A DNA stretch of 27,007 nt, taken from the IMG/VR virus record IMGVR_UViG_3300028823_000200, positions 1 to 27,007 of that record. One strand, written 5' to 3'. The DNA comes from a virus. The notes under the pieces were generated by a model. It searched no databases and was not told the DNA's origin. It saw only the letters and a list, made by a program, of their open reading frames with translations. Below are positions 1 through 19,520 of this stretch, piece by piece. The first letter of the stretch is position 1, and every line of letters begins with the position of its first letter. Made by a program: the position numbers and the translations under genes.

Positions 1-144
1 TACCAGATCACATGAACCAGTAGTTGGTTGATGACCTTTGACAAACAGATCACCAGATGCCACCGCATCGGTATCTGAGAGTGTTACCAGATCACATGAA
101 CCAGTAGTTGGTTGATGACCTTTGACAAACAGATCACCAGATGC
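1..144 (-). repeat. Perfect 60-bp direct repeat, period 84 bp
   Basis: Bases 1-60 and 85-144 are identical. The 24-base spacers that follow (61-84 and 145-168) differ. Eighty-four bases equals two 14-residue protein units, so the copies stay in frame. DNA identity here, against only protein-level similarity in the other units, points to a recent duplication or gene conversion. Confidence 0.95.
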
Positions 145-606
145 TGTTGCCCTGTCGTGTCCCTTTGTGAATAAATTTATCGACGCAGATGAATCTGTAT
201 GCCCATGAATAAACAAGTTGAATGAATTATTGGTTTGTTCATGACCGGATATAAAAAGATACCCAGAAGAAACAGAAGATAGTGCTGGTGCTGATAAGAA
301 TAAATCACATTGTCCAGAATTCGAAGATAATGCATTAATGAATAAATCGTTTGATGCAGAAATATCAGTACTGCCATTAATAAATAAATTATGATAAAAA
401 GAAAACAAATCACTTGCAAGTATGAACAGTGTATTAGATGAATTATCTATCCCGTGCCCACCGATAAATAAGTCACCAGATACAGACACACTTTCTTGTC
501 CAGTAATAAATAAGTCAATAGAATTATTGACAGTTTCATATCCTTCTACGTATAGGCTGCACTGTTTTGTTATTTGGTCATATGCACTAATAAACAGATT
601 ACCAGA
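1..606 (-). repeat. At least 14 tandem 14-residue (42-bp) protein repeats
   Basis: In the minus frame, residues 638-839 break into units of 14 (one has 15): SGNLFISAYDQITK, QCSLYVEGYETVNN, SIDLFITGQESVSV, SGDLFIGGHGIDNS and so on. The core is S-x-[ND]-L-F-[IV]-x-G-H. Such short strand-turn units fit a beta-solenoid or stacked hairpin, which is inference. The array continues past the window edge. Confidence 0.85.
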
Positions 607-2517
607 AGCCGATAGATCAGTATCCCATGGATTATAGCTAAAAGCTAGATCAAATAAGCTGTATTCATCTAGGGGAGCATGTTTCGTCTTGCCAAGATAA
701 TGTAGTTTGAATAATTCTGAACTAGAGAACTGTTCTGTATCGGCCCACATAATAGCTTCGTCTAATAATTGGCCAATATTACCATCTTGTGCCGTCACTC
801 TCGGTGCGGTGTCCGTGGTAATAGGACTTTGCGATCCAGAATTTTGTATCCCTTGGTTTATCCACGGCAAGCCATTGATAGATGTGCATAGATTCCAATT
901 ATTGTCACCTTGATATCTAAAATCAAACAAAACAAAATAATCATCATAATCAGAAATTATATCAAGAAAATTTATAATTTCTGAATCATTCCAGTAAGCA
1001 TTTTCATTGATGGAAATGTATCCAGAAGTTATGTCTAATTTATATCCTCGCTCTATCCTTACAATTGCTCCAGATGAAACAGAAAAGTTTGCCCAACAAC
1101 CCATGGTAAATCCAGACGAATCTATTGTCGAAGGATATATGGCTGATTCACTGGAATATATATCATGATATTGGGTGTAAACCAATCTAACCGTTTCGGT
1201 CTCACTATCAAAAACTACAAATCGGTCATCCCCCAAATATGTTGCTGTATTATCTTCGCCTGAAGTAAGGTCTGGATCATATGAATATGGGGTAATGTTG
1301 CCTATGTTCATAAAATAATTTTCATCTACTGTGAAAAAACCAGCCTGCATAGAAGTTGCCTGTTCTTGAACACTATATATCCCTCTGCCTTGCTGTGCAT
1401 CATACGCCAGCCTTGGTACCCACAATGTCTGTGAGTTGGCAGTTTTAGGTACAGAAAATTTATGTGTTATAACAGAACCAGATACATTATATGAATTAAA
1501 AATGATAGTACCAGCCGAATATTCTGATCTGTGCGCAGTTACAAAACAAGAATCATTAATCTTGACCATTGTATTTACCAAATTACCAGCACCATCAACA
1601 TCAATAGCTGGTTCAAGAGACATGTTCGTTCCAGAAATATTGACAATTCTAGCAACATCCTGATTATCGTTTGCCAAATCTCTATATTTTAAAATAGCTT
1701 TGTCTTGATCTAGAACAACAACTCTTCCTAAATCACCACTTGGTATTATCAGTGGTGATCCTGCGAACACATCTCCATTATCTGCTATGGTACCATAGCG
1801 TAGATATAAATTGTCCTGACTGCCGCCAGTTCCGTCATAATATGAAAATATAAAACCACCAGAAGTTGCACCTAAAACCGGTGACAACGACATGTCTCCC
1901 CCAAAGGCAAAGCTACCACTTTGTTCTATATCATAATTGAGCGAATTAAATGATACAACATCGTTGTCAACTTCGAAACTAATAGCTCCAACCCGAGAAG
2001 AATTGCTCATAGCTAGAACACATACATATAGATTTCCGCTAACATTGATAACTTGATTTGCACCTTTATTAATCAGGATTGTTGTGTTTGGTGCGGCACT
2101 ATAAGTGCTACCAGCACTTATCGTATCACCACTAACAGATATAACTTGTGCTTTTATTCCCTGATTTCTGTCAAGGTGTACAAACAATACTCTATTGTCA
2201 TCATCTGGTTTTGGAACCAACCAACATCCAAGGTTGCCAGCATACACATCTATGAACTCACCACTACTACTAATTACTGGGCCACCGATAGCACCTATCC
2301 CACTAGAAATAATAGCTGGTCCAAACGAAGCAGAGCCATTCCATATATCACCATTAATACCATCACTGTAATCGTCAAGGGGGTGATAAAAAACAACATT
2401 ATCCGAATCCAAAAATCCACTGGCAGACAAAGACCCAGCTATATATATATCAATAGATTCAGATAAAACTGAATGCCCAAAGGTGTATAAATTACCAGAA
2501 GTAGATATAAGCGCCAT
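1..2517 (-). CDS. Tail fibre/adhesin with LamG-like domain and 14-residue repeats (3' end cut by window)
   Basis: The frame is open without a stop from an ATG at 2517 (Shine-Dalgarno GGAGG nine bases upstream) to base 1, giving 839 codons, so the C-terminus lies outside the window. The N-terminus (MALISTSGNLYTFGHS) holds two copies of a 14-residue repeat. Near residue 40 a segment with FYHPLDDY begins, which resembles the start of concanavalin/LamG-like domains. Around residues 470-610, TMGCWANFSV and a closing IMWADTEQFSSSELFKLHYL look like a second half of a LamG-like jelly roll. From residue 638 onward the chain is tandem 14-residue repeats of the form SGDLFIxGHxxxxx. Serine, glycine and asparagine are abundant and there is no signal peptide. 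It is the last of the virion genes, after the connector-like protein and the propeller protein, so a receptor-binding tail fibre is the natural inference. The exact role is unproven. Confidence 0.75.
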   Translation of the reverse strand, partial: MALISTSGNLYTFGHSVLSESIDIYIAGSLSASGFLDSDNVVFYHPLDDYSDGINGDIWNGSASFGPAIISSGIGAIGGPVISSSGEFIDVYAGNLGCWLVPKPDDDNRVLFVHLDRNQGIKAQVISVSGDTISAGSTYSAAPNTTILINKGANQVINVSGNLYVCVLAMSNSSRVGAISFEVDNDVVSFNSLNYDIEQSGSFAFGGDMSLSPVLGATSGGFIFSYYDGTGGSQDNLYLRYGTIADNGDVFAGSPLIIPSGDLGRVVVLDQDKAILKYRDLANDNQDVARIVNISGTNMSLEPAIDVDGAGNLVNTMVKINDSCFVTAHRSEYSAGTIIFNSYNVSGSVITHKFSVPKTANSQTLWVPRLAYDAQQGRGIYSVQEQATSMQAGFFTVDENYFMNIGNITPYSYDPDLTSGEDNTATYLGDDRFVVFDSETETVRLVYTQYHDIYSSESAIYPSTIDSSGFTMGCWANFSVSSGAIVRIERGYKLDITSGYISINENAYWNDSEIINFLDIISDYDDYFVLFDFRYQGDNNWNLCTSINGLPWINQGIQNSGSQSPITTDTAPRVTAQDGNIGQLLDEAIMWADTEQFSSSELFKLHYLGKTKHAPLDEYSLFDLAFSYNPWDTDLSASGNLFISAYDQITKQCSLYVEGYETVNNSIDLFITGQESVSVSGDLFIGGHGIDNSSNTLFILASDLFSFYHNLFINGSTDISASNDLFINALSSNSGQCDLFLSAPALSSVSSGYLFISGHEQTNNSFNLFIHGHTDSSASINLFTKGHDRATASGDLFVKGHQPTTGSCDLVTLSDTDAVASGDLFVKGHQPTTGSCDLV

Positions 2518-2529
2518 ATATTCCTCCAG

Positions 2530-3078
2530 CTAGAATCTGTCTGTTCGCCCTGATGTCCATACAGCAAACTGATCATAATACCATGAAATAGTGCTTAAAG
2601 CATTCCCGCCAGGTACTCTATATGGACCCAAAACAGCTTTCCCAATTCTACCGCCACCTGAAGCTGCACCAGACGCCAATAAAGACCATTTAAGTTTTTC
2701 GTATGCCGCACATGGTCCTATCTCCAAAATGTCACGGTAACCCCTAAAACTGACACTCGTATCAATCGCACTGTCACCGTCTCGCACCTTGATTCCCTGC
2801 CCCAACGCCTGTTTGAACTCACCCTGCGTCAGAATGCACGCCGCTTTCAGTGGTACCAGAGCCATGAAGATGTTATCCTCGCTGATCACGGGGTCGGGAG
2901 AAATCATCAGGGCACTGATATCGTAGGTGTAATCGTAGCTGAATGGAAACTCGGCGTCAACCATGATCCCGGCAGTAATCAGCACCCGCTCAAGATACCC
3001 ATCGGTGTAAGTCTGGGGCGTTGCAATATCGCTCATCAGAACTCTCACCATCAAAACCAAATCAGTGTCCCAAGCCAT
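2530..3078 (-). CDS. Head-tail connector-like virion protein
   Basis: This 182-aa protein starts at the ATG at 3078, preceded by AGGAGGG four bases away. A longer open frame up to 3105 lacks such a site and would overlap the upstream gene. The sequence has the pattern seen in small neck/connector proteins of tailed phages: an N-terminal helical stretch LMVRVLMSDIATPQTYTDGY, a mid-segment ISPDPV near residue 62, LVPLKAACILTQGEFKQAL, and a G-x-CAAYEKLKW segment. I recognise this as a conserved phage virion family resembling the HK97 gp6-type connector, but that fold assignment is from memory of sequence patterns only. It sits eight bases downstream of the propeller gene and just before the large fibre gene, in one likely operon. 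Confidence 0.5.
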   Translation of the reverse strand: MAWDTDLVLMVRVLMSDIATPQTYTDGYLERVLITAGIMVDAEFPFSYDYTYDISALMISPDPVISEDNIFMALVPLKAACILTQGEFKQALGQGIKVRDGDSAIDTSVSFRGYRDILEIGPCAAYEKLKWSLLASGAASGGGRIGKAVLGPYRVPGGNALSTISWYYDQFAVWTSGRTDRF

Positions 3079-3086
3079 TTTCCCTC

Positions 3087-4256
3087 CTAATCGGGGTACG
3101 ACCAACGCCCACGTTCGGGCACAACAATGAAGAATTCACCATGATCATGCTCACCTTCATTTGAAGTTATTCTATAATAATAATGGTATTTCTTTTTCTC
3201 GTCAGTGAACGGAAGATGTTCTAATGACCATCCGAATTTGCCAGTGTCACCGATCGCATAACAACCGCTATTCGCAAGCATTATAGCAATATTCTGTCCA
3301 TCAACAACATCCCACACCTCGATATTAGCGCTGACCGATGTGGTAGCAAACGAGCCGATCAACTGCGGGTTGTAATCTGCCGCACGTACTAGTCGATTGA
3401 TTATTCTTAATGGTTCGTCTGATGGTGTTAGCACAGGAGGGACTGAACCGAATATAAATAGGTTACCAGATTCCTGAAATATAACCGGAGAAACCTCATC
3501 TAAGACAAATATATCATACCAAAAATTAGCAGATATTGCCAGTGTTTCTATGTTTGATCCATCTAGACTTGATCTTCTATATAAATGTGGATTCCACTCT
3601 GTCCAATATAATTTGTTTGAACTGGAGACGACAGCAATACCTAACAACCAAGCAGTTGCAGATGTTACAACCACCTCACTTCCGCTACCGTTCATATCTG
3701 ATCTGTAGATTTTGGAGGAACTAGAATCTGACCAATATATTTTTGAATTAACTAAATCTAACTCTATATCTTCTGCATAACCAGCGGCATCAGCCAATAG
3801 CAGTGTTTTGTTACTACCATCAGTATCTATTCGTGTCAAATGTTTATATGAATCAAGATAATAAAGATGTTGATTGTTTTGATCGATAGCAAGTACGTCT
3901 GCTCTAACGCCACTGGCGATAAGCATCTGATTACTTCCATCTGCGTTTGCTCGATAGAGTTCTTTATTAGCTACCGCTGGTTTGCTGTAATATATCACTC
4001 CATTAGGGCCATCCAGTGCTATTGCAGTATTATATCCGCTGACATCACTTATTATGTTTTCTTCTGGACTACTTCCATCCGAATTGGCTCTATGTATCCC
4101 ACCATTTGCTGTCCAATAAATTTTTCCTAATTCTGGAGAATATTCTACAAATATTGGATTACCAAATGTACCAGAAACAATTACAGATATATTATTACCG
4201 TCATTGTCCATTTGCACAATGGTTCCAGTTGTGTAATCTGTTGCGTATGCCATCAT
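3087..4256 (-). CDS. YWTD-type beta-propeller adhesin with C-terminal beta module
   Basis: The 389-aa product begins at tandem ATG codons (4256 or 4253). The second is better spaced from the AAAGG site. Residues 1 to about 255 contain six repeats with the LDL-receptor class B signature: GKIYWTANGGIHRANSDGS, GVIYYSKP, QHLYYLDS, SKIYWSDSSSSKIYRSDMNG and NKLYWTEWNPHLYRRSSLDG, each followed by DGSN-like turns. Six such repeats normally close a six-bladed propeller. A single SGNLFIFG unit, like the repeats of the neighbouring fibre, follows near residue 263. The last 90 or so residues (NIEVWDVVDG ... SGCYAIGDTGKFGWS ... EFFIVVPE) match the 116-aa protein encoded just upstream. With no signal peptide and a place among tail genes, a binding role on the virion is likely. 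The ligand is unknown. Confidence 0.7.
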   Translation of the reverse strand: MMAYATDYTTGTIVQMDNDGNNISVIVSGTFGNPIFVEYSPELGKIYWTANGGIHRANSDGSSPEENIISDVSGYNTAIALDGPNGVIYYSKPAVANKELYRANADGSNQMLIASGVRADVLAIDQNNQHLYYLDSYKHLTRIDTDGSNKTLLLADAAGYAEDIELDLVNSKIYWSDSSSSKIYRSDMNGSGSEVVVTSATAWLLGIAVVSSSNKLYWTEWNPHLYRRSSLDGSNIETLAISANFWYDIFVLDEVSPVIFQESGNLFIFGSVPPVLTPSDEPLRIINRLVRAADYNPQLIGSFATTSVSANIEVWDVVDGQNIAIMLANSGCYAIGDTGKFGWSLEHLPFTDEKKKYHYYYRITSNEGEHDHGEFFIVVPERGRWSYPD

Positions 4257-4284: not shown

Positions 4285-4635
4285 TTAATTCTGGATAATA
4301 TAAGAACTTTTATTGTTGAGTGACGGCATACCGCCATCTCTATTTTCATGAGATATAAGTATAAAATCTCCATCGTCAGTATTCCCCAGACCGTCAGACA
4401 TTCGCCAATGAAATTGCTGACGACTGGCTGTCAGTGTTGGAATACCACTCGTAGACCAACTATACCTTCCGGTACTGTTGATCTCGGTACAACCACTAGA
4501 GGTAATTGCTACCCCAGAACCATCTTCCCACAATTCGATATTGACGGTTTGACCCGTCACCAGTTCGCCTACAATGGCAGGTGGCGAATCTGGAAAGAAA
4601 TCAAACTCAGCAATTGTTTGCCCAATAAGAGCCAT
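4285..4635 (-). CDS. Small beta-rich virion protein sharing a module with the propeller protein
   Basis: The 116-aa product starts at the ATG at 4635, five bases after AAGGAGGG. An earlier start at 4668 has no comparable site. Its body aligns by eye with the C-terminal part of the next gene's product: NIELWEDGSGVAITSSGCTE / NIEVWDVVDGQNIAIMLANS, then GRYSWS / GKFGWS, HWRMSDGLGNTDDGDFIL / YYYRITSNEGEHDHGEFFI. The shared module, about 85 residues, is beta-strand rich and could be Ig-like or a small jelly roll. I do not recognise a named family. The genes lie 28 bases apart and read the same way, so co-expression with the tail genes is likely. Confidence 0.6.
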   Translation of the reverse strand: MALIGQTIAEFDFFPDSPPAIVGELVTGQTVNIELWEDGSGVAITSSGCTEINSTGRYSWSTSGIPTLTASRQQFHWRMSDGLGNTDDGDFILISHENRDGGMPSLNNKSSYIIQN

Positions 4636-4695
4636 TTCAACCCTCCTTACATCACACATTTGCCCCAACCATCGGGACTACCAAGATTTCAAATA

Positions 4696-5082
4696 TTATT
4701 TTACTGCCAATTCCATCAACCGATTAATTACATCTGGAATCATAAAATATCGCTGAAATTCTTTCTCAGAATATCGAATACGCAAAGCCACATCACGAGA
4801 TCGCAGCGGAAATTGTATTGTGTGAAGCCGTTTGGTAACTGTCGAGGAATCAACACCTAGAAGCCGCCCAATCTGAGATACCGACAGACCCAGATTGTAC
4901 AGTGCTATAAAAACAGAATCGTGGAAGATTTGGTTTGCCTCCGATCGACTCCGTATCATCACACCAAGAGACTTGAGTCTATTATACACAGTAGTTTCAC
5001 TGCAACCGTCAATACGGGCAATTTCTGCACAACTCCTACCCTTGTTATATAATTCAATCACTGTTGCGTCTGGCAGAGACAT
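4696..5082 (-). CDS. Helix-turn-helix DNA-binding protein with two HTH repeats
   Basis: The 128-aa product starts at the ATG at 5082 with a GGAGG site five bases upstream. It has two homeodomain-like HTH units: residues 6-46 (IELYNKGRSCAEIARIDGCS then TVYNRLKSLGVMIRS) and 57-96 (ALYNLGLSVSQIGRLLGVD then STVTKRLHTIQFPLRS). The units match the N-terminal HTH repeats of the HNH endonuclease encoded directly upstream, but no nuclease domain follows. The rest is a short helical tail. It may be a regulator, or the DNA-binding remnant of a homing endonuclease. A GTGTATAAT promoter-like motif lies 39 bases before its start, so it leads the tail-gene transcript. I cannot tell the two roles apart. Confidence 0.65.
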   Translation of the reverse strand: MSLPDATVIELYNKGRSCAEIARIDGCSETTVYNRLKSLGVMIRSRSEANQIFHDSVFIALYNLGLSVSQIGRLLGVDSSTVTKRLHTIQFPLRSRDVALRIRYSEKEFQRYFMIPDVINRLMELAVK

Positions 5083-5149: not shown

Positions 5150-5962
5150 TCAGGAATGCAGGCGGGTGTGTTCTTCGGCAGAAATGGTTACGCCATTGAA
5201 AACATCCCAAAAGGGTGGATATTCTTGGGCTAGATTAAATAAAGTATCACAGTCTTTTTCGGGGTCTAGGTCTGAATTAAGGGAAAGGAATTCTTCGAAG
5301 ATTTGGGCGAATGGTTTGAGATGGTGGATTTCGAGTTTGCCACCACGTTCCCCAGATATCTGGCAAGTATAATCATCTCTGATCATGCAAGCTCGTCGCC
5401 AAATTTGCCCCTTTTCGCAATGTCTTATTCTTGTATGCAAGGGTGTTATTCCGCCTTTATATGATTTAATTCTGGCACCAGAATGCTCTGGATCAATTCC
5501 GTATTTTTTCAATATTGCAGCAATACTCGATTTATGAACGCCATAATCACCGGCTATGTCAACACAGCTTTCATATATATTTGTTTGATACCTGAGACAA
5601 ATTTTTGAATGCTCTGAAACAGGAACTTTGGTATTGGCTTCTGTCGCCTGTTTTTTGCGATCTCGCATCTTAACACCACCTTTGACAAGTCTTTCCCACA
5701 CAGATGCAGAACTCATATTATATCTTCTGGCAATTTCTGATGTGGAAAATTCTAAAATTTCATATTCATACTGTAAAGTATCAAAAGAACATTTCTCCAT
5801 ATGATTTCCGTTAGACCGTATATCCACTCCTTTTTCTCTCAATCGTGTGATCAAAGTTTGCACAGAACACCCAACTATTTTGGAAACCTTGGTTGTTGGT
5901 AGCCGTTCGTCTCGATATAATCGTATAGCTTTCTCTATATCTATTATTTTTCTGGTAGACAT
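5150..5962 (-). CDS. Free-standing HNH homing endonuclease with N-terminal HTH repeats
   Basis: The 270-aa product starts at the ATG at 5962, four bases after AGGAGG. Three HTH-like units come first: residues about 9-50 (AIRLYRDERLPTTKVSKIVG), 62-99 (YEILEFSTSEIARRYNMSSA) and 117-158 (CVDIAGDYGVHKSSIAAIL). The C-terminal HNH nuclease begins near residue 180: DYTCQISGERGGKLEIHHLK with the paired histidines, then a long loop, FNGVTISAEEHTRLH and the end of the protein. This order is typical of phage HNH homing endonucleases, which recognise a site in an intron-less or neighbouring gene and spread by cleavage and repair. It sits between the capsid gene's terminator and the tail operon and is more AT-rich than the capsid gene. 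It looks intact. Confidence 0.85.
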   Translation of the reverse strand: MSTRKIIDIEKAIRLYRDERLPTTKVSKIVGCSVQTLITRLREKGVDIRSNGNHMEKCSFDTLQYEYEILEFSTSEIARRYNMSSASVWERLVKGGVKMRDRKKQATEANTKVPVSEHSKICLRYQTNIYESCVDIAGDYGVHKSSIAAILKKYGIDPEHSGARIKSYKGGITPLHTRIRHCEKGQIWRRACMIRDDYTCQISGERGGKLEIHHLKPFAQIFEEFLSLNSDLDPEKDCDTLFNLAQEYPPFWDVFNGVTISAEEHTRLHS

Positions 5963-6047: not shown

Positions 6048-7073
6048 CTAAAAGCTTCCCAAGAGGACGCGCCGTCCGTCGAGGGCTGCAAAACCGTGTT
6101 CTTGCCATCCATAAAATCCCGCCTTCTGATTACGATGCAGCGTGTCGTCCTCGAAGATCGCCAGTTCACGCTTGACCGGCATCACAAACGAGTCACCGTG
6201 CGACAGGTCGAGACCCACGACGATTTCCTCATCGCCAGTGCCCATGCTGACACCCAGCGTTGCAAAGTACGTCTGGAACTCCTGGCCCACGCCAAGCTCG
6301 TCCAGCGGATGCAGATTGACGCCGTAGATGCGAGCCATCGGGCCACCATCGTCACCAGCGGTGAAGATTTCCCGACGAGTCAGGTCGTCAACCTCATCAC
6401 TATCCCACTCACGAATGTCCTCCAGAGCCTCTGGACTGATGAACAGGTCAGTCAGACGACCGCGATTGACCGTTGCACTGTTGCCACCAGCAAGACGAGT
6501 CATAGTCGTCTTCATCAGAGACACGAGACGCTTCGTAAACTGACCAGCAGTTGCCGCCCTGTCGTACACCAGCGGAGCCCCGCCAGAGTAGTCGGTACGC
6601 CCTGCACCAGCCGCGATAATGACACGCCAACCGTCCGTGTTCATCTTCTTCACGAAACCGGCCTCCAGTACTTCCATCGCACGAGCAACGATATTCCAAC
6701 GTGCAGATGTCGCATACTTCAGCGGCCAGTCGATTGCGTTACCCACGACGTAGGTGTTGATTGTCACCGCGTCACCAGTGATGGTACGCTGTGGCAAAGC
6801 ACCTTCGGATGGGATCATATACGCCACATAGTCACTTTCCTGTGCAGTCTGGTAGAAATCCAGCGGATACTCGGCAGTTGCACTTGGGTCCAGAACTTCG
6901 GGTGCGAAGATTCCGCCCAAAATGTCGCCATCAAGCAGTGCTGAACGTAGAGGAACTTGTAGAGCCTGAGCGAGAGAATGCATCGCCTCTAGGGCCTCAG
7001 CCTTGTTGACCGAACCAGTACGCCGTAGAAGTTCAACCTGCTCAGGTGTTGGTTTTCTGATGTTACGCTTCAT
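6048..7073 (-). CDS. Major capsid protein (HK97-fold type)
   Basis: The 341-aa product starts at the ATG at 7073 after an AAGGGGG site. It follows the protease-scaffold and decoration-like genes, the usual order, and is directly followed by a strong terminator. Recognisable family segments are LDPSATAEYPLDFYQ near residue 62, DYVAYMIPSEG, the central WNIVARAMEVLEAGFVKKMN and DGWRVIIAAGAG, QFTKRLVSLMKTTMTR, FISPEALEDIREW, and the C-terminal DDTLHRNQKAGFYGWQEHGF near residue 309. These match the major head proteins of a group of tailed phages with HK97-like folds as I know them. About 340 residues is typical. The N-terminal 35 residues are helical and may be removed on maturation, which is inference. 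The GC content is higher than in the neighbouring homing gene. Confidence 0.9.
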   Translation of the reverse strand: MKRNIRKPTPEQVELLRRTGSVNKAEALEAMHSLAQALQVPLRSALLDGDILGGIFAPEVLDPSATAEYPLDFYQTAQESDYVAYMIPSEGALPQRTITGDAVTINTYVVGNAIDWPLKYATSARWNIVARAMEVLEAGFVKKMNTDGWRVIIAAGAGRTDYSGGAPLVYDRAATAGQFTKRLVSLMKTTMTRLAGGNSATVNRGRLTDLFISPEALEDIREWDSDEVDDLTRREIFTAGDDGGPMARIYGVNLHPLDELGVGQEFQTYFATLGVSMGTGDEEIVVGLDLSHGDSFVMPVKRELAIFEDDTLHRNQKAGFYGWQEHGFAALDGRRVLLGSF

Positions 7074-7087
7074 TCTTCTTCACCCCC

Positions 7088-7570
7088 TTATGTGATATCA
7101 ATCGAGACCCTCACAAAGCCATTTGCATCCTTGGTCGTCTCGAATCGACCAATCTGCGGCGAAGCACTTCCATAATTAGCAGTGCTAATATAGCCACTCG
7201 CAGCCAGATATGCAGCAGCCCCGGCAGTCGGTGTGATGCCTGCCGCAACCATATCTGTCACTACGAACCCCTTCTTGACTAGAGTACACTTCTCCCCAGG
7301 ACGAATCTCTCCGTTCTCATAGTTGCGGAAATCCCGAGTTGCACTCATAGCCGCTGCTACCGTCTGGAGCAATACACCCTTGGCAATCGCGCCTGAGGGG
7401 TTTGCCACATAGCCCACGACGTTCGGCTCATCGACAATGTTCTGTCCGATTGCCGCGCCAGAACCCTGTGTAACTACGCTAGCAACGCCGCCCTTTTCCG
7501 CAGCGACCGTAGTCCAGAAGTTGGTAATGTCGGTAACCTCGTTGTACTCACGATCTGGTTTCAAAGCCAT
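7088..7570 (-). CDS. Probable capsid decoration / head stabilisation protein
   Basis: The 160-aa product starts at the ATG at 7570 after GGGGG, two bases past the protease-scaffold stop and 14 bases before the capsid gene. It is small, glycine- and alanine-rich and beta-like: GSGAAIGQNIVDEPNVVGYV, GVLLQTVAAAM, GEIRPGEKCTLVKKGFVVTD, PTAGAAAYLAASGYIS, and a C-terminal IGRFETTKDANGFVRVSID. Proteins of this type lie between the protease/scaffold and the major capsid gene in many tailed phages and are described as decoration or head-stabilising proteins. The position is firm evidence; the exact function is inferred. Confidence 0.65.
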   Translation of the reverse strand: MALKPDREYNEVTDITNFWTTVAAEKGGVASVVTQGSGAAIGQNIVDEPNVVGYVANPSGAIAKGVLLQTVAAAMSATRDFRNYENGEIRPGEKCTLVKKGFVVTDMVAAGITPTAGAAAYLAASGYISTANYGSASPQIGRFETTKDANGFVRVSIDIT

Positions 7571-7572
7571 CC

Positions 7573-9075
7573 CTATTCACCCCCTTCGTCTTTCTCATCT
7601 TCGCGCCCACATAGCGCGCCTGCCACTGACAACCATTGATCAGCCTCCGACTTCTCCGCGTCCTCCGTAGCGTTAAAATCAGGACCGTCGTCTCCCTCTT
7701 CCACGTCGTTCAGAGCCGCCTCCGCTTGCTCTGCTTCCTTCTCACCGTCGTCCGTAGCGTCAGCCTTCTCTTCCGACTCTTCGCTCACGGCCTCTTCGGT
7801 CTTTGCCTCACCGGCATACTTTAGAACTACCGCGAATGTCTCTTCGGTCATTTCACGAAGTTCGACCAATGTCGCCTCTTCGTCCTCGACCTTCTTGACT
7901 TCCGATAGCTTCGCCAGGCGCTCACGAGCCGCTTCGTTCTTGCGGATTTCATCCAGTTCCGCAGCGCTCTTCTCGGCACGCTCTGTCACCTCATCGAGTT
8001 GCTTCTGAAGCTCAGCCTTCTCAGCCTCGACAGCTTCCATCTTCTCAGACGCCTCCGTCACACTGGCAGTCAGTTCCTCGACCTTGGTATTCAGAGCAGT
8101 AATCTGCCCCTCGTAGTCCTTGGCCTGAACATCTTCCGCTGCCTTCTGCAACTCAGCGACCTCCTTTTCCTTGCTCTCTAGGCTCGCCCGAGCCTCTTCA
8201 AGCTTTGCCTGAAGTTCCTGCAATTGTTTTTCGTCCACGTCTTCTACACCCCCTTCCGACAAATCACTCAATTCAGCAGTTACAAAACTCCGCGAAGCGG
8301 CTACTTTATTCGCCGCCACCTTAATCACCGATTCTGGATTCGCTGGGGTATCAACAAACCCCTGCGCACCGAAAATGATATCCTTCAATACCCGACCAAT
8401 CTTGTAGCCCTGGTACTCCCCGCTGCCGCCGTAAATCCTCAGATGCTTGGTCAGAAATGCGGTTTCCTCAGTACGATCGATCAATTTTGTCTCGCCAGTG
8501 ACTGGGTCTACCAGACCATAACCGAAATCGGGAAACCAAGCCTCCATCGACACAAACATCTCTCCAGCCTTAGCCTTAGCAATGATCTCGTCGATCCGAT
8601 CAGATAGCTCTGGGAATGCCCGATATAGGACACCAGCCACTTCGATATCGAATTCGGTCGGTGGTGCCTCACCCTCAGCTACGTCGATCTCTGTCCCGAA
8701 TTTGTCCAATGCCCTGGTCTGTACGATATGCCCCAGAATTTTATCAGCTTGATGATTGTCGTTCATGGGCTTGTGGAGCGGCGATGACCGAGCCTTCCAT
8801 ACCTCTTCGGGTGTGAAAACGTCATCGTTCAAATTCCAGCCCGTGCTGACCAGAATCGCAACAACGAGGGCCAAATCGGGTTGTTCCTGACCGAGAAGCT
8901 CTTCGACACTTTGTACAGTAGAAGTTGATCTCATCAGATCGGCGACAGACATGCCATCGAAATATTTCTCAATATCGCCTACCTGAACTTGTGCCGTGAT
9001 AAATGCAGAAGAACTTCCGGCTTTGTTCATCTGGAAATCGATTCCAGCATCTTTTTCAGCTTGATAAACGCGCAC
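7573..9075 (-). CDS. Prohead maturation protease fused to a scaffold-like coiled coil
   Basis: The frame opens at a GTG at 9081, but the GTG at 9075 has GGAGG five bases upstream and is preferred (500 aa). Residues about 60-250 look like a phage prohead protease: GWNLNDDVFTPEEVW, then DNHQADKILGHIV with candidate catalytic histidines (about 108 and 116) and EMFVSMEAWFPDFG with a candidate catalytic serine (about 176). KIGRVLKDIIFGAQGFVDTP closes the domain. From about residue 280 the chain becomes a long acidic coiled coil (ELQAKLEEARASLESKEKEV and onward to about 400), then a very acidic tail. Protease followed by scaffold in one polypeptide suits a self-processed internal core protein. The peptidase family is not certain from sequence alone. 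It precedes the decoration and capsid genes. Confidence 0.75.
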   Translation of the reverse strand: MRVYQAEKDAGIDFQMNKAGSSSAFITAQVQVGDIEKYFDGMSVADLMRSTSTVQSVEELLGQEQPDLALVVAILVSTGWNLNDDVFTPEEVWKARSSPLHKPMNDNHQADKILGHIVQTRALDKFGTEIDVAEGEAPPTEFDIEVAGVLYRAFPELSDRIDEIIAKAKAGEMFVSMEAWFPDFGYGLVDPVTGETKLIDRTEETAFLTKHLRIYGGSGEYQGYKIGRVLKDIIFGAQGFVDTPANPESVIKVAANKVAASRSFVTAELSDLSEGGVEDVDEKQLQELQAKLEEARASLESKEKEVAELQKAAEDVQAKDYEGQITALNTKVEELTASVTEASEKMEAVEAEKAELQKQLDEVTERAEKSAAELDEIRKNEAARERLAKLSEVKKVEDEEATLVELREMTEETFAVVLKYAGEAKTEEAVSEESEEKADATDDGEKEAEQAEAALNDVEEGDDGPDFNATEDAEKSEADQWLSVAGALCGREDEKDEGGE

Positions 9076-9094
9076 GAGCACCTCCCGTCATATG

Positions 9095-9108
9095 GCTTAT
9101 ACACAACC
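9095..9108 (-). promoter_or_regulatory. Promoter-like motif TTGTGTATAAG
   Basis: On the minus strand GGTTGTGTATAAGC covers 9108-9095, between the HNH remnant (stop at 9139) and the protease-scaffold start (9075). It differs from the recurrent GTGTATAAT core only in the last base. The predicted start would leave a leader of about 14 bases that still includes the GGAGG site. Confidence 0.4.
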
Positions 9109-9138
9109 ATCGATCGAAAGTACACGATACTCATCCCA

Positions 9139-9571
9139 TTAAAAAGACCTTTCATGAATACTATCCCGTTTACGACAATTGCAGGCTGGACATAATAAAG
9201 ACAGATTTGATAAATTAAACAATTTCCAGATATCCGACTCCGACTCTGCCGACGCTAACGGAATAATATGGTTGATATGAATCCCTGTCTCATCATACGC
9301 AGAACCACACATGGGGCAGCAATCGCCCTGTTCAGACCTGATCCGCTCCAGGTGGTCGAACAATTCAGTCCTTGGTCTCAGAAATTTCCCTAATAATCGA
9401 ACAATGTCTCCGATCAGATGTACGGAGCTTCAGTGCCTTAGCCTTGGTCGTGATGCTGGTGACAGGACGATTCAGTGCATCTGCGCAGAACTGAACACCC
9501 TCTGGGCCATAATGTTCCAGAAGGAATGATACCTCATCAGGCTTCCATTTAAGATACTGGCGGTTAGCCAT
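9139..9571 (-). pseudogene. HNH homing endonuclease split by a frameshift
   Basis: The first part starts at the ATG at 9571, overlapping the upstream stop by eight bases. It encodes a SANT/Myb-like DNA-binding unit (WKPDEVSFLLEHYGPEGVQF, then ALNRPVTSITTKAKALKLR) and stops at 9365. A second frame carries a complete HNH domain (CCPMCGSAYDETGIHINHII, then LSLLCPACNCRKRDS) and ends at 9139. The HNH frame is open well upstream of its first usable TTG (9363) and reads IVRLLGKFLRPRTELFDHLE, a natural linker that overlaps the end of the first part. So a one-base change somewhere about 9380-9430 best explains the break. A separate start at TTG 9363, with AAGGA five bases before it, is the alternative. 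It may be inactive, a programmed shift, or a sequencing error. Confidence 0.7.
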
Positions 9572-9893
9572 TCGCACGGTTCTGCTTGAGGAAATCAATC
9601 ACATCGGCCTTGGCCTTTTTGTCATCATAAAGAATTTTGGACGCGAATCCTTCCTCGTTAAGCCCGGCATGGGCTTCCATAGCAAGCTCTTCTGGGGACG
9701 GAAGATAGAATTGCCGTCTTTCCTTCATACCATCTGGATTGGTACTTTCAATGGTATAACCGAATCTCACAAATTCCTCACCCTCGTAGATATACTTCTC
9801 GACGAAAATATCACTCGCCGGAACCAGAATGCCGTTGACAGTAAGAATCGCCTGCCGACTCGACGTATCCAGTGAAACGTTCACAATAGCCAT
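9564..9893 (-). CDS. Conserved-looking protein of unknown function, 109 aa
   Basis: The ATG at 9893 with GGGAGG six bases upstream is preferred over an earlier in-frame start at 9944 inside the methyltransferase gene. The product is beta-rich at first (MAIVNVSLDTSSRQAILTVN, then VEKYIYEGEEFVRFGYTIES) and helical later (SPEELAMEAHAGLNEEGFAS). No named family is recognised. It lies three bases after the FkbM gene and its last bases overlap the HNH gene, so it was probably followed directly by the protease gene before the homing gene arrived. A small structural or assembly protein is possible, but nothing in the sequence proves it. Confidence 0.55.
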   Translation of the reverse strand: MAIVNVSLDTSSRQAILTVNGILVPASDIFVEKYIYEGEEFVRFGYTIESTNPDGMKERRQFYLPSPEELAMEAHAGLNEEGFASKILYDDKKAKADVIDFLKQNRANG

Positions 9894-9895
9894 GA

Positions 9896-10552
9896 CTACC
9901 TCCCAAGTTCGAGACCTTTGTTCACAAACAGATGGCAAGGCCAATCGTTTTGTTCCTCTACCACCCAGAAAAATTCAGACATCCTTCGCACCATTTCTTC
10001 GGTTTCCTGTTGTGGGTAGATACGACCCCCGTGAAAAGAAACACAAAGCTGACCCAACTTGTCGCGTAATTCAGGTCTGAGCAGCACTTCCTTGAGTATC
10101 CCAATCTCAGCGCCCTCGCAATTGAGGAACAATAAGTCAATACACGAGCAGTCATTTTCCTCGATGATTGTACTAAGACTGACAGACCGAATATTACTTG
10201 TTCTCCGCAGCCGACGACCTTCACCCTGATGTCTGGGATAAATACTGTTCGAAGATTCCTCAACGAACTCATAAAATTCAGCGGTACCATCAGAGCCAGT
10301 CACAACTGCACGATGAGCAGTAATGGGAGCGCCAGCATTAGCAATGCCAGCAACTAGACTCGCGTTATTTTCCTGTCCAGCTTCATATGCAATCATTGTT
10401 AGTGCATTATTGAACTTCTTGCACAGCTTGATACCATGTGCGCCGTGTATCGATCCAATCTCTACGATAACTGGATTATCTGGTAACATGTTGGATGCAA
10501 AATACATGTACGTATCACAACGATCAAATTCAAAAGGAGGTGCTTCCACCAT
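9896..10552 (-). CDS. FkbM-family SAM-dependent methyltransferase
   Basis: The 218-aa product starts at the ATG at 10552, seven bases after TAGGAG; an earlier in-frame codon at 10576 lies inside the upstream gene. Residues 30-40, VEIGSIHGAHG, form the glycine-rich SAM-binding loop of a Rossmann methyltransferase. Residues 138-149, IDLLFLNCEGAE, match the FkbM signature (usually DLLKIDVEGAE). SVSLSTIIEEN before it is also typical of the family. FkbM enzymes generally O-methylate sugars or small molecules. With a GDP-mannose dehydratase and a glycosyltransferase in the same gene run, sugar methylation is a plausible role, but the substrate is not shown. It is two bases downstream of the preceding gene. 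Confidence 0.8.
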   Translation of the reverse strand: MVEAPPFEFDRCDTYMYFASNMLPDNPVIVEIGSIHGAHGIKLCKKFNNALTMIAYEAGQENNASLVAGIANAGAPITAHRAVVTGSDGTAEFYEFVEESSNSIYPRHQGEGRRLRRTSNIRSVSLSTIIEENDCSCIDLLFLNCEGAEIGILKEVLLRPELRDKLGQLCVSFHGGRIYPQQETEEMVRRMSEFFWVVEEQNDWPCHLFVNKGLELGR

Positions 10553-10554
10553 AC

Positions 10555-10941
10555 TTAATCTCCTAATTGCCGACAAAATTCAACGAAACCTCGTTCTTCA
10601 GATATAAGAGAACTTTTGGATTTATAGGATTCTAATACGGCTTTTGCGTGCCTCTGTAAGTGGGACTTAGCTCTCTTGCGAAAATTCGTTACAGATTCCT
10701 TAACTGATTTGACCTGATTGACCCTGGCCAAAGCATTTCTTAGATGAGGAAGATCAATAGTACCATGAGCCATTGGATCAGTAGCACTTTTAGTGTGATG
10801 TGGCAAGTGGCGATATTTCTGCAATGTCTTGCCATCATCATTCTTCTCTGCACCCTTTTCCACAACAAAAGCAGCATCCGGGAAACTCTTGTCTCCATAT
10901 GCGGCATCAGACCAATCATTCAGAATACGATCCGTGTCCAT
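10555..10941 (-). CDS. Small basic phage protein of unknown function, 128 aa
   Basis: The ATG at 10941 follows AAGGGGG and sits four bases after the portal stop codon; a TTG one codon earlier is less likely. A central YRHLPHHTKS segment and DLPHLRNALARVNQVKS, then RKRAKSHLQRHAKAVLE, are seen. The HLPHH ... HLRNALARV ... HLQRHAK pattern occurs in phage head-region proteins, sometimes attached to prohead proteases, as far as I recall, but I cannot assign a function. It is helical and basic in the C-terminal half. It lies between portal and FkbM genes and is probably co-transcribed with them. Confidence 0.6.
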   Translation of the reverse strand: MDTDRILNDWSDAAYGDKSFPDAAFVVEKGAEKNDDGKTLQKYRHLPHHTKSATDPMAHGTIDLPHLRNALARVNQVKSVKESVTNFRKRAKSHLQRHAKAVLESYKSKSSLISEERGFVEFCRQLGD

Positions 10942-10944
10942 CAA

Positions 10945-13098
10945 CTACCCCCTTGTATCCACCACAGTGGCCCAAGCCAAGGACGCCAGCATTCTTCGCT
11001 CCTTAGATGTAGGTGATTTCTTGGTTGACAGAGTGAAATCAGCAACCAAATCACAAAAACGAGCTTCCATGCGACGAGCATCCTTCCCTGCCCCACCAAG
11101 CCTTTCGGCAATCAGTTCCTTCGTCACAGTATCCCCTGGACGCAAGACCGATAAGATGCCACGCTTGGTCCGCTCTAGCTCGGTACGCTGAGCCTTGGTC
11201 AGAGACCGCATATTCTTAACGCCATGCTGTTCTAGATAAGTATCATCCACCAAATTATCGATACGATCCATCAATCCCTCTGCCACAACATTGAGGACAG
11301 ATAGTGTTTTCGGAGTTCGTTCATCTCGCGGCGCTGTATCCTTGGTGGCCGGTGGCCGTCCTGGCGAATTGTTGCCTTCGTCGCTCGGCTGATCGCCGCT
11401 AGGATTATCCCCACCGCCATTGTCGTCTGTGTTCCCAGGATGTTCCGGGAATCTTGTGTCGTAGCGGTATCCCAACTTTACTTTTTCAAGCTGGATAGCC
11501 AATTCGTTTTGCTTCTTCATGGTCGAGAACGGACGGTTGTACGGATTGGATTTCTCTAGCACACCTGGGTTTTCCTCTCTAATCTTCTGCTCAGACTTGA
11601 TCCGCTCAAGCTCGATCATGTAGTTGACACCAAATACTTCTGTAGCCTTCTCGGACGATATGATGCCACGATCGAGTAGTTGGATCATCAACTGCTTCTC
11701 TGCTGCTTCGTCTCGCAACGACATGATACCGAAGCTAATCGCCGGAATCCTCTTGAAACCCATAGCGTCAGCGACGAGGCGTAGTTCGCCTTCCATCCAG
11801 CGGATAGCACGACTGCGAACATATTCAAGTCGTTCCACAAGGGTTTTCAGTTGGACAAAGGCAGACTGTGCGTTGCGTGTTCCAAGGTCTTGCCCACCGA
11901 CCAACGAATCGGGGATACCCAAGCCACGAACAATGTCGGCATTAACGCCAGCATACTTTTCTGCGCCAAGAATCTTATCTGTCGGCGGATACTCTACATG
12001 GAGATCGATCATGTCATCCCACACAAGGTCCATGACCCCGCCGCCAGTATTATGCTGTAGGATATCGATCAACTTGTCTACGGCTGCTGCCGTTGGAAGT
12101 ATTTGCTGATCGGATTTGCCCAACTTCCACAGACGAATAACATTGATCACACCATCCAGCGCGGCCATGTCTGCCAGGCGCATCTTCTCTTTGAACATCA
12201 CATCTTCAAGAACGCCATACAGAAATGGAGTGCCCCAGTCCTCCCAGTCGTCCTTCTTGTAATAATCAACGTAAATTTTGTTCATATCCAATGCGACCAG
12301 GGTGCCACTCTTCTTAGCTGCCTTGACCACCTCTGGTGGGAGCTTGGCGACGAAAGCCTTCTCGGCATCTGTCTTCGGCCTCTTGATGGCATTAGCTAGG
12401 TTGTGCGGAATCCTCATCCCCAATGCATCAGAACCGAAAAAGCGACCTACTTCACCGCCGATCTTTTCGATCATGACAGGAGACAGGAATGTATATCGCC
12501 AAGGGATTTCGCGTCGGTTGGTTGTCTTTTTGGTTGTCTTGATCTTCTCTGGAGGATCGGCTACCTTCGTCTCATCCAACGTATTGAGGCCAGTCACATC
12601 CCCCTTGGTCATCTCTTTCATAGCAGGGTTAGTAATAAAGGCATTCTTACGGCGAACAACCACATTGGCGTCTCGCATAAGAAGCTTCATAAAATCATGC
12701 GCCCGACCCTGAAGATTGACACGTCTGGCCCACTCGCGGAAAAATCTCTCCTGGGTTTTGGTTGGATGTTGCAGTTCAAGCCCCTCTGTTGCGAAATCGG
12801 TCATCAGGTCGATAATATTCCGAACCATCCCAACTTTGCGATAGATGGCTTGACAAGCGGTAAGAATTTCGGCATGTTCTACTGGCAGTTTATCATTCGG
12901 ACGGTGAGTATCATAATCATGGCGATTGTGTCCTGTGCGAAGATTGACATCCGCAGCCAGAGTACGGTGCGGAAGTCCATGGATCATATGGCATGTCTCT
13001 GGAAGTACGTGCTCGGTGATGCTTCTTGCCCCTTTGGTGTACAAATGCCCTTTGGTCGGGGTCTTCGGTTTGCGAGTACCGGGTTTTCTTTTTGTCAT
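10945..13098 (-). CDS. Portal protein
   Basis: The 717-aa product starts at the ATG at 13098 after AAAGGGG. It follows terminase and precedes the head genes, the standard place for the portal, the dodecameric ring through which DNA enters the head. Portal-like segments include VGMVRNIIDLMTDFATEGLE near residue 90, DFMKLLMRDANVVVRRKNAF, YTFLSPVMIEKIGGE, EKYAGVNADIVRGLGIPDSL near residue 385, and AIRWMEGELRLVADAMGF. Residues about 550-586 form a low-complexity linker rich in N, D, G, S and P. The last 130 residues form an extra domain with a helix-rich LTKAQRTELERTKRGILSVL segment. At 717 residues it is longer than many portals, mostly because of this C-terminal part. Its own promoter-like motif lies upstream at 13151. 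Confidence 0.85.
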   Translation of the reverse strand: MTKRKPGTRKPKTPTKGHLYTKGARSITEHVLPETCHMIHGLPHRTLAADVNLRTGHNRHDYDTHRPNDKLPVEHAEILTACQAIYRKVGMVRNIIDLMTDFATEGLELQHPTKTQERFFREWARRVNLQGRAHDFMKLLMRDANVVVRRKNAFITNPAMKEMTKGDVTGLNTLDETKVADPPEKIKTTKKTTNRREIPWRYTFLSPVMIEKIGGEVGRFFGSDALGMRIPHNLANAIKRPKTDAEKAFVAKLPPEVVKAAKKSGTLVALDMNKIYVDYYKKDDWEDWGTPFLYGVLEDVMFKEKMRLADMAALDGVINVIRLWKLGKSDQQILPTAAAVDKLIDILQHNTGGGVMDLVWDDMIDLHVEYPPTDKILGAEKYAGVNADIVRGLGIPDSLVGGQDLGTRNAQSAFVQLKTLVERLEYVRSRAIRWMEGELRLVADAMGFKRIPAISFGIMSLRDEAAEKQLMIQLLDRGIISSEKATEVFGVNYMIELERIKSEQKIREENPGVLEKSNPYNRPFSTMKKQNELAIQLEKVKLGYRYDTRFPEHPGNTDDNGGGDNPSGDQPSDEGNNSPGRPPATKDTAPRDERTPKTLSVLNVVAEGLMDRIDNLVDDTYLEQHGVKNMRSLTKAQRTELERTKRGILSVLRPGDTVTKELIAERLGGAGKDARRMEARFCDLVADFTLSTKKSPTSKERRMLASLAWATVVDTRG

Positions 13099-13149
13099 TT
13101 CTGCCCCTTTACGGAATCAATCGCATTGCAGTACAAACGTGGTCCGATT

Positions 13150-13162
13150 GATTATACACAAT
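13150..13162 (-). promoter_or_regulatory. Promoter-like motif ATTGTGTATAATC
   Basis: On the minus strand GTGTATAAT covers 13159-13151, in the 69-base gap between the terminase stop (13168) and the portal start (13098). The predicted leader is about 47 bases. No clear -35 box is present. Confidence 0.55.
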
Positions 13163-13167
13163 CTATC

Positions 13168-16100
13168 CTAAATTCGCCTACCCTTTTTGATGGCCTTAAA
13201 AACCCCACCATGACGAGTATCCTGGGCATTTCTCATCCGACCCACGCCCGGCCCACGATACATAGCCTCATTTTTGGGAGCTTTCTCTCGTTTCGCAATA
13301 TTCCCAGGCACATCCTCGTAGTCAATATCATCACCCATCGCAACATCTGTGTCGTAGATATACTTGTGTGACAGCAGGAGAGCCGTGTAACGGTCTTTAC
13401 GCAGCCGCCCCTTGCGAGTACGCCCCTCAACAGCCCCCGGCTGAACCACCTGGGGAGTATCAAATCTCTCTTTACCTGTTGCAGTTTCGCTCATCTGGAT
13501 GGTACAAAGTTCATTCTTTAATTCTTCCAGATTGAATACATTCTCTTCATAGGTGTCGAAAATGACGCCAGCAGCCTTCTCGGCCTCAATAGCGGCGTAC
13601 ATCTTCACGCTATCGAAAGCTGGGAACAGCAACGTGCGAGTCTCCAGGCTCTTGTGGAGTACAACGTTGGCATCCTGGTTGTATTCGGTGCTCTGCTTGA
13701 CAAGATAAAGGATATGGCGTCCGTCTGTCTCACCGTCAGTATCCTTCGGCTCGTTGAAGTCGATAACCTCATAGATAGGGAAATCGTCCTCGGCTATGTT
13801 CATCAGCTTCTTGTTGCGAAGCATCTCGGCGATTGCGTAGCCACCACCCTGGCTATCCATTTCAATTCGAACCGGGTTGAACAATCTAACCACATCTCGA
13901 ATCTTAGCACAACAATAGGCGTAGTAGTCATCATCTGTGATCAGTCCACGCTTTTTCCGCTTGAGGAATTCTTTCTTGTTCACAGCCCAACAATACACAA
14001 TGCGGTAGTGATTCGGCCACACTTCTATCATGGTGATAGCCAGATTATCTCTTTCTGCGGCGGGATCGACGCCCATAACATACTTGCGCTTGGATTGAGC
14101 CCTCATCAATGGTGTGAATGTAACAGGTCCATCCGGTGTTTCGATAGGCTTGTTTGGACCAACAGTACATCCTTCGATCAAACTACGTGGGTAGAAACCG
14201 TCTGAATCCTTAACAAAAACGGCACCATACTCCATGAGATAGATGTTGCGTGGCAGGGTTGCTTTCGCATGAGCCAACTGCCGTTGATCCAATAAACCCT
14301 CTGGCAGATGTGTGTGAGGAATTCTGATGATCGCGTAGTCTCTATAATCGAATCCCTCTGGGACCAAATTCTCTCCACCAAAAATCTGTGCTACCTGATC
14401 TGGATCACCCTTACTTCTGATAATCTTTCTCCACATCTCATACTTCTTTGCAAAATGGTTAAAAGCATAATATGCGGTACCAGAATAAACTATTTGGTTA
14501 CCATGCATCCTGCCATTATCTGTGGTGATCTTTTTCTTGATATCTGCTGGCAGATCAAGTTTTGCCAACTGTTTTTCGAAGGCAGCCCTCTTGGCCTCTT
14601 CGACAGGAGTCTTGGCGGTAGCTGCAAAACCACGGACAACAACGTCGAATACATCTTCTGGGATAGAATTATGCTGTACAAAACCATTACCATAGAAACT
14701 ATGGGTATTTGGCAAATGAAAATCATATAAATGATCCTGATAATCAAGCTTTCTAACAGATTCTACCTTCAGGCATGTATTATTGTTATCCAAAAATTCT
14801 TTTACAGCAGAAACTGCTTCATCTTTAGTGTCATATCTACCTAGATATCGAACTTTTCCACAATATAAAACAGCAGCTTTCCATTGATTGCGACTTTTGT
14901 CAAATGTAACTCCATATGTATCTTTATTAGAATGTGTGTGTGCTACATCTGCCAATTCTTTCCAATCATCAATTTCTAACAATTCAGATAATCTATGCGC
15001 ATGTATACCATTTGCGCGCAATATCCATTGTTTTCTGTGACTCAGTTGACTTTTTCTAGTCCTACGACCAATTATGATATCGAATTTCAAAAGTAGTGTT
15101 TGTACATCCTGTGCCAAAATATCAGAAACTGTATAATATGCAACACCAAGCTTGGTCGTAGACCTATCTTTCCACAAAAAACACGATCCATCGCCGTAAA
15201 ACAGACCGCTTAAAAATGCCGTCGATATATCTACCGGTGATCTCAGAATAGAATTAGGTATCCGCTTTTCATATACATTGGAATAACCTATTCCTAAATC
15301 GAATAATTTTTTCCTAAATTCCGTATTATGTATTTTAATTTCATACGATTTCTTACAGTCCCATCCACGTCCATCTGTATACGGCTCTCTGATATATACT
15401 TTTGGGTTTAGATGATCAAACCTATCTTTGATTCGCTCAACAAGACTGGTATCTGTAGTTCTTATAGAAACACAATGTTCATTCGTAACATCACCTTCTG
15501 ATATCAATAGGCCAATTAACCAGGCCATATCTTTAGTAATAAAATCATCATACGATTCAGTCGGGAAAGTATATTTGTTCTCTGTAATAATAAAATCATC
15601 TATCGTTAAATCCTTGCCAAGTTTCCACCCATTCTGAGTAAGTACCTTGTGTTTATTTGAACACTTAAATCTATACCCATATTTCGTAACGACTTCATAC
15701 ACATCAGTTTTCGGTGTTTTTATCAAAGAACCAATAGATTCTAGTTCTCCATATCTATTGAGTACCTTTGTATTAATGTCTGTAATATCAGATATCCTCT
15801 CAAGACCGTTCTGTGTCTCTACTAAAGTATCTTTATCCAAACAGGCAAACTCATCCGCAATGACTACATTAGCTCTGAATCCACGAATTTTCGTTCCGTC
15901 TCCCATCGGCAGCGCGTACACTATACTATCCCCCACGCGGAAGTAACATAAGTCTACATTCTGTCTTGGGCCTGCTTTTTTACCTCCACCGACGATATTG
16001 CGAAGAACGGGTGCGTTGCCCCAAATGGTATCGATGTAGTTGAACACCAAGCGGGCTTGTCTCAAGCCAGCACCGACAATCACAATCTTAGTTCCAGGGT

Positions 16101-17721: not shown

Positions 17722-18256
17722 GGCAATCCTCTCCTAACTTCTTCTTTGGTTCCTGGTAAACCCAACGATCTTTCTCTACCCTAACTACCTCTTCGAAAAT
17801 CATCTGAGCCATCTTGCGACCACACTGTCCTGCCGGTATGATGTTCACCCCATACTTAACTGACAGATACATCAACCATCTGACCAGCGACTTGCCCGGT
17901 ACACCCTTGGAGAATTGTGGTGGTGACAATTCAAGGATGTCTGGTGTCATAGATGATTCGATTATGACGTAAGCGTGCTTAATGTTGGACATCCGCTCCA
18001 TCTCTTCTTCGAATTGCGGTCGTCTCTTGGCACTGTAGTTGCCCCACAATTCTGAAAAAGCGAATTTACGCTCAATAGCCAGAATGTCGGTATATCCAAC
18101 CAAGCTGTAATCGCCAGTCTCTACCGTATCCACAATCGTCCCCTCGCATCTCGGGGGTCTCCGATCTGGTACATGCGCACTAAAAATCCACCCATAATCT
18201 TTTTGTTCTCTAGTGTCACGAATTACAGTATAATTAGGCAAAATTAAACGTGGCAT
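17711..18256 (-). CDS. ERCC4-domain nuclease
   Basis: The 181-aa product starts at the ATG at 18256, overlapping the dehydratase gene by 13 bases; a GAGG site lies ten bases upstream. VIRDTREQ (11-18), VETGDYSL (45-52) and LAIERKFAFSELWG (59-72) follow the ERCC4 (XPF-type) nuclease order: D-x-R-E, GDY, then the catalytic ERK segment. The aspartate that usually follows ERK by three residues is not seen, so catalysis could be altered. Its closing residues overlap the terminase start. Phage ERCC4 nucleases are thought to act on branched DNA in recombination or packaging; the link to packaging here rests on position only. Confidence 0.75.
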   Translation of the reverse strand: MPRLILPNYTVIRDTREQKDYGWIFSAHVPDRRPPRCEGTIVDTVETGDYSLVGYTDILAIERKFAFSELWGNYSAKRRPQFEEEMERMSNIKHAYVIIESSMTPDILELSPPQFSKGVPGKSLVRWLMYLSVKYGVNIIPAGQCGRKMAQMIFEEVVRVEKDRWVYQEPKKKLGEDCLGC

Positions 18257-19257: not shown

Positions 19258-19516
19258 TGTCTTTCTTCCCTCCGTTCTTCTGCGCTTCACGATGAGCGTC
19301 AATCATCTCCTGAATATTCTCTGGTAGCTTGGTAACATTGGCGTTGCTGTCAGATGCCGTAATGGCTTCGATTTCGTTGAGGCAACACACTTTGTACTTT
19401 TTCCCACTTCCGCACAAACACGGCCAGTTACGACCCCACCTCATACGTCTGCGGGTAATAGGCATAGAAACCCCGGCTAATCTCTTTTGTAAAAATGATT
19501 TTTCTTTTCTGTTCAT
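19250..19516 (-). CDS. Small SEC-C zinc-motif protein
   Basis: The 88-aa product starts at the ATG at 19516 with AAGGAGG ten bases upstream. Residues 32-45, PCLCGSGKKYKVCC, form a SEC-C motif, a short zinc-binding unit first described at the C-terminus of SecA and also found in many unrelated proteins. The N-terminus is very basic (KRLAGVSMPITRRRMRWG), and the C-terminal half is a hydrophilic helix. The role in the phage is unknown; the motif alone suggests protein or nucleic-acid binding. It overlaps the dehydratase gene by eight bases and lies just after the HNH gene. Confidence 0.75.
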   Translation of the reverse strand: MNRKEKSFLQKRLAGVSMPITRRRMRWGRNWPCLCGSGKKYKVCCLNEIEAITASDSNANVTKLPENIQEMIDAHREAQKNGGKKDNE

Positions 19517-19520
19517 TAGA

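Follow-up and report, generated by a model that had tools for sequence, protein, structure and literature searches.

A minus-strand gene at the left end of a viral contig encodes a tandem array of 14-residue units, and arrays of this kind recur in related viruses, where they lie in a conserved gene neighbourhood, are combined with a recurring set of domains and differ in length. The window, by which we mean the whole stretch of DNA analysed, is the entire IMG/VR record (27,007 bases), which is classified there as linear. We propose that the array serves as the spacer or stalk of a virion protein protruding at the head-tail neck, that its rod is probably a beta-solenoid or beta-roll in which each unit makes one coil, and that its anchor is one of two C-terminal domains; we put this reading at an even chance. 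The names (a) and (b) for these domains, like the name adaptor for a neighbouring gene, are our own labels.

The array and the protein that carries it

606..1 (-): array of 14-residue units, residues 638-839; 14 full units, then five residues of a fifteenth, at which the contig stops
268..312 (-): the sole 15-residue unit, residues 736-750, seen in the sequence
607..2415 (-): globular region of the fibre protein, with homologues among other array proteins (23-54% identity)
2416..2499 (-): two repeat units at the N-terminus, residues 7-34; profile scores 20.2 and 20.0
1..60 (-): left-hand member of a pair of exact 60-nt copies, identical to 85-144 and abutting the contig end
85..144 (-): right copy of the 60-nt repeat, from self-comparison
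58..99 (-): poorly matching unit SCDLVTLSDTDAVA, residues 807-820, between the copies; profile score 8.7
2530..3105 (-): gene in the adaptor position, adjoining array proteins and conserved in nearly all relatives
3087..4256 (-): LDL-receptor-type propeller protein (Pfam Ldl_recept_b, E 9e-14)
3429-3470 (-): one repeat unit in the propeller gene, followed by domain (b) from about 3395
4285..4677 (-): stand-alone domain (b), from comparison with relatives

The frame that holds the array (2517..1, minus strand) has 839 residues and is still open at the left contig end; because the window spans the whole contig, the array cannot be read further to the left. At least 14 tandem units had been predicted, and the count of 14 units and five further residues bears this out; the unit profile, which was trained on the window's units and then on those of relatives (four rounds, cut-off 8.3 to 14.0 bits, final 13.2), found three or more units in none of 1,322 shuffled frames. 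Thirteen of the 14 full units have 14 residues and the remaining one has 15. The period is 42 nt, the consensus of the window's units is S-x-D-L-F/Y-I/V-x-G-H/Y, and the self-identity of positions 1-606 exceeded 36% only at lags of 42, 84 and 126 nt when lags of 20-129 nt were compared.

The globular part appears by eye to comprise a beta-rich region from about residue 40 (FYHPLDD) and a laminin-G-like region from about residue 468 to 605, and it gave no Pfam match above the cut-off. No family in Pfam, PHROGs or NCBIfam covers the repeat or the protein with any confidence, and searches with the whole array protein returned no relatives from IMG/VR, isolated phage genomes or the PDB. A description of the repeat was not found in the literature, where a motif search catches printed sequence strings only.

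Elsewhere, the window contains a large terminase gene (13168-17721, minus strand) with two in-frame inteins that carry LAGLIDADG-type homing endonuclease domains (Pfam Intein_splicing, E 4e-27; LAGLIDADG_3, E 9e-35), genes for an HNH endonuclease (26500-26880, plus strand; PF13392, E 5e-15), an N6/N4-type DNA methylase (23273-23986, plus strand; PF01555, E 6e-31) and helix-turn-helix proteins (5150-5962 and 4696-5082, both minus strand), and, beside the packaging genes, a frame that by eye resembles a GDP-mannose dehydratase-like sugar enzyme (18244-19302, minus strand). Two other IMG/VR contigs (L049 and L054) are 99.97-100% identical to window positions 6971-16084 and 11278-20310 and do not reach the array; judged by this identity, they are the window virus in other assemblies.

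A repeat family and its gene neighbourhood

Relatives of the window were gathered as about 100 related loci, with the capsid and portal genes as queries (capsid identity 65-97%). Thirty-seven frames held at least three units (a few contigs were counted twice), up to 67 per protein among the relatives, with 386 neighbouring pairs spaced exactly 14 residues; since the relatives share ancestry, these counts do not represent independent events. The family consensus is S, I/G, D, L (0.94), F/Y, I/V, x, G (0.89), H/Y, D/E, S/T, x, S/T, G.

A profile built from the diverse arrays was too degenerate to scan collections, and a DNA pattern for two adjacent units matched 17 contigs in IMG/VR, 15 of which the capsid or portal searches had already retrieved. 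Another carries domain (a), and the last, 3300007352_000013, is unplaced, although its sample also holds a relative (L039). Among GTDB genomes the pattern found 16 stretches, of which 14 had zero or nearly zero units and were rejected as arrays; the two real arrays (L114 and L127) come from assemblies that both also hold relatives of the capsid (87-92%) and portal (71-78%) proteins. Thus the repeat occurs almost only in one uncultured virus lineage at the sensitivity of the pattern, and the restriction is valid only at that sensitivity, because a two-unit pattern misses diverged arrays. A tblastn match in LR756501.1 (L171), a 735-kb uncultured phage, was rejected as a different repeat; it is of the PHPPVSGTIDTSF type, with a period of about 14 residues, inside a frame of 1,215 residues.

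Of the two GTDB contigs, QIFK01000183.1 (L127), from a Nitrosospira MAG, carries a related virus with about 29 repeat units and an uncertain host link, and CP070695.1 (L114, L159-L162), a scaffolded Heimdallarchaeota MAG, includes a 46-kb piece of a related virus at about 47.5-93.9 kb that may be mis-binned, since 100-N gaps flank it on both sides. With one MAG pointing to Heimdallarchaeota, through a scaffold with N gaps around the viral piece, and the other to a Nitrosospira bin, host assignment was dropped.

In most relatives that extend far enough, the array repeats lie downstream of the capsid gene. Typically, the capsid gene is followed by a stand-alone (b), in many cases by a larger protein with (b) at its end, then by the homologue of the 2530-3105 gene and by array proteins that finish with (a) or (b); a stand-alone (a) often closes the series. 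L045 and L047 are among the relatives with an array protein ahead of the 2530-3105 homologue. The product of the window gene gave no family match and is a putative adaptor by position only. Domain (a), which also lacks family matches, has about 200 residues with paired cysteines, and its gene sits between the capsid and (positionally labelled) adaptor genes and the tail genes. It stands alone in L012, L035, L039, L041, L044, L046 and L047 and is C-terminal to arrays in others, and nearly every copy of it opens with a single repeat unit.

The arrays sit between lectin-like, beta-propeller or collar-like domains and a C-terminal (a) or (b), the variable N-terminal parts including RCC1 or LDL-receptor-type propellers, laminin-G-like domains and, by eye, collar-like domains. 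In L023, the relative nearest to the window in the globular part, the array precedes a ConA-like region, which indicates that the modules are shuffled and that a single fixed order fails. Where a ConA-type protein follows the 2530-3105 homologue, its C-terminus is (b) in six distinct viruses (L011/L012, L013, L019, L026, L034 and L035) and (a) in L015. Because (b) predominates, the anchor of the window protein, which would lie beyond the contig end, is more likely (b) than (a).

The exact repeat at the contig end and array length

The original prediction described positions 1-60 and 85-144 as a recent in-frame duplication of two units in an array that is still expanding. The two copies are indeed identical over 60 nt and in frame, but identity breaks off at base 61, so that 60 of the 84 nt match and two whole units were not duplicated. 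The intervening 24 nt code for part of the unit at residues 807-820, the low score of which compares with a median of 21.5 for units in relatives. A contig search found the 60-nt repeat in no other contig, and no array-side contig end of a relative shows a comparable terminal repeat. The length of 60 nt may reflect the k-mer length of the assembler.

Either the end of the window is a rare real duplication at which the assembly stopped, or it is an artefact, and we hold the two to be about equally likely, each at a little under an even chance. A real and recent duplication, which would mean that the array is still changing in length in the window virus and that the 84-nt repeat at 1-144 halted the assembly, is favoured by the reading frame, by a lag of exactly two units, by identical synonymous sites and by the differing array lengths of the relatives. 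However, about 25 other arrays hold no equivalent, distance does not lower the similarity between units, the unit between the copies is abnormal and the copy stops exactly at the contig edge. This last feature also supports an assembly effect, in which the contig end re-entered its own sequence or joined two similar units and the exact copy is not in the genome, as do the general lack of exact copies in the arrays and the finding of only one other terminal repeat of at least 15 nt (L110) among about 27 relative contig ends tested. Against an assembly effect, the 14-residue phase and the open frame continue across the junction, and the intervening 24 nt occur at no other place. An apparent recent duplication at a contig end is a trap and, without reads, is not to be read as evolution.

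Within runs of units, in the relatives and in the window's short runs, about 22% of variable residues and 51% of nucleotides are shared at distances of one to ten units, duplicate contigs having been taken out by hand. The best nucleotide identity between units of one run is 83%, with no excess between neighbours. Exact repeats of at least 24 nt are few inside the relatives' array proteins; one is in phase (33 nt at a lag of five units, L045), and those in L017, L134 and L140 are out of phase. The arrays of near-identical contig pairs align without gaps, which is weak evidence for stability because such pairs are probably the same virus. Assemblers break at long exact repeats, so recently duplicated arrays may be under-represented, a bias that opposes a conclusion of no expansion. 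Old, diverged arrays fit these data better than ongoing expansion does. Array length does differ widely between relatives, but the description "still expanding" is not supported, since the near-exact copy occurs only at the contig end and units in relatives are equally dissimilar at every distance.

Predicted fold and position in the virion

AlphaFold was run, on monomers only, for the window array (18 rows) and for the array of a relative together with its domain (a), which was picked to identify the anchor. The model of the window array has a pLDDT of 71 and a pTM of 0.64 (58.6-71.1 over five models, with pLDDT above 90 at no residue) and assigns L-F-I to a three-residue strand in almost all units, some of which contain a further short strand. 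In the second model the strand pattern recurs in the first half, pLDDT drops towards the end of the array (residues 125-185 are mostly below 50), and (a) is mostly above 80. The repeating strands expected from the original prediction are thus present at moderate confidence and are compatible with the proposed beta-solenoid.

No Foldseek match reached an E-value of 0.001 with either model, and we take the matches as hints rather than as identification. For the array they included left-handed beta-helices, a YadA-type head, an ice-binding protein and an uncharacterised phage protein (probability 0.96, TM 0.54, E 0.17), and the weak sequence and model matches together concern beta-helix, YadA-head and beta-roll proteins. 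For the array with (a), the top PDB matches, all with E of at least 0.1, were the phage connector 9lbn (probability 0.90), the PhiTE connector 9cc7 (0.69), the phage 812 stopper and the lambda portal complex. Connector, stopper and neck proteins thus head the structure matches, none of them significant, and domain (a) shares the gene position of phage connector and stopper proteins between capsid and tail genes, but differs in its cysteine pairs and long N-terminal extensions.

The left-handed parallel beta-rolls that form the heads of YadA/BpaC-type trimeric autotransporters are built from layers of 14 residues, rarely 15, with a conserved glycine; their length varies, and these adhesins are anchored C-terminally (PMC9543794). 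The array likewise combines 14-residue layers, as seen in the exact spacings, with a glycine conserved at 89%, a rare 15-residue unit and variable length. In contrast, the hydrophobic triplet of the array occupies positions 4-6, whereas BpaC is described with core residues 5 and 7 and glycine 8, and the YadA/BpaC anchor is a membrane barrel while that proposed here is a virion domain. The corresponding family, PF05658, matched nothing in the window even at E 10 (control genomes matched) and none of 18 array members at E 0.1. The grass ice-binding beta-roll LbR_Ice_bind (PF21300) has short coils of similar length and no functional link to the array; one of 18 array members matches it below significance (E 0.0012), and LpIBP (3ult) is among the weak Foldseek matches. 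The BACON repeats of crAss-like phages (PMC6949934) also stand in tandem in a phage protein, but they are whole domains, of unrelated sequence, rather than 14-residue units.

Beta-structured trimeric shafts are frequent in phage and virus fibres, and the units might instead form a shaft of this kind, a triple beta-spiral or interdigitated beta-helix in which the strands enter a three-chain bundle. The beta-helix of T4 gp5 has been described (PMC4576200), and one array member weakly matches the gp5-type PHROG 430 (E 3.5e-4). The single hydrophobic cluster per unit and the occurrence of single units as linkers would suit such a shaft, but regular strands already appear in the monomer models and known shaft proteins are absent from the PDB sequence matches, and we regard it as a minority possibility. 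A flexible, low-complexity linker without any repeating fold is improbable: although S, T, N and D abound in the loop half of each unit and model confidence is moderate, the leucine (94%), the glycine (89%) and the hydrophobic triplet are conserved at a fixed 14-residue spacing across 584 units.

Under the stalk reading that we prefer, each 14-residue unit would supply a single short strand of hydrophobic residues (L-F/Y-I/V) together with a glycine turn, and stacking of the units would most likely give a rod, probably of the beta-solenoid or beta-roll type. The rod would bear the variable lectin-like, beta-propeller or collar-like domains and be fixed to the particle by the conserved C-terminal (a) or (b), its length having been set by old gains and losses of units. 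Against this reading count the lack of a significant Foldseek match, the pLDDT values of the window model, the position of the array ahead of the ConA-like region in L023, the window's own anchor domain, which is unseen within the contig, and the single units beside other domains, which a lone solenoid coil would leave unexplained. The array had been assigned to a phage fibre. Its place in a virion protein is supported, but gene order and (a), one of the two C-terminal domains found after arrays, point to the head-tail neck over a classical tail fibre.

Our analysis raises the further, more tentative possibility that lineage-specific 14-residue beta units, which may derive from the single unit opening (a), convert a head-tail connector protein into a C-terminally anchored adhesin; at the neck, a rod whose length varies would then present the lectin, propeller or collar domains. 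If these interpretations are right, the array represents an unregistered repeat family, by whose simple sequence signature one group of large uncultured tailed viruses could be recognised; in these viruses exchangeable binding domains would be borne by proteins of the neck and not of the tail tip.
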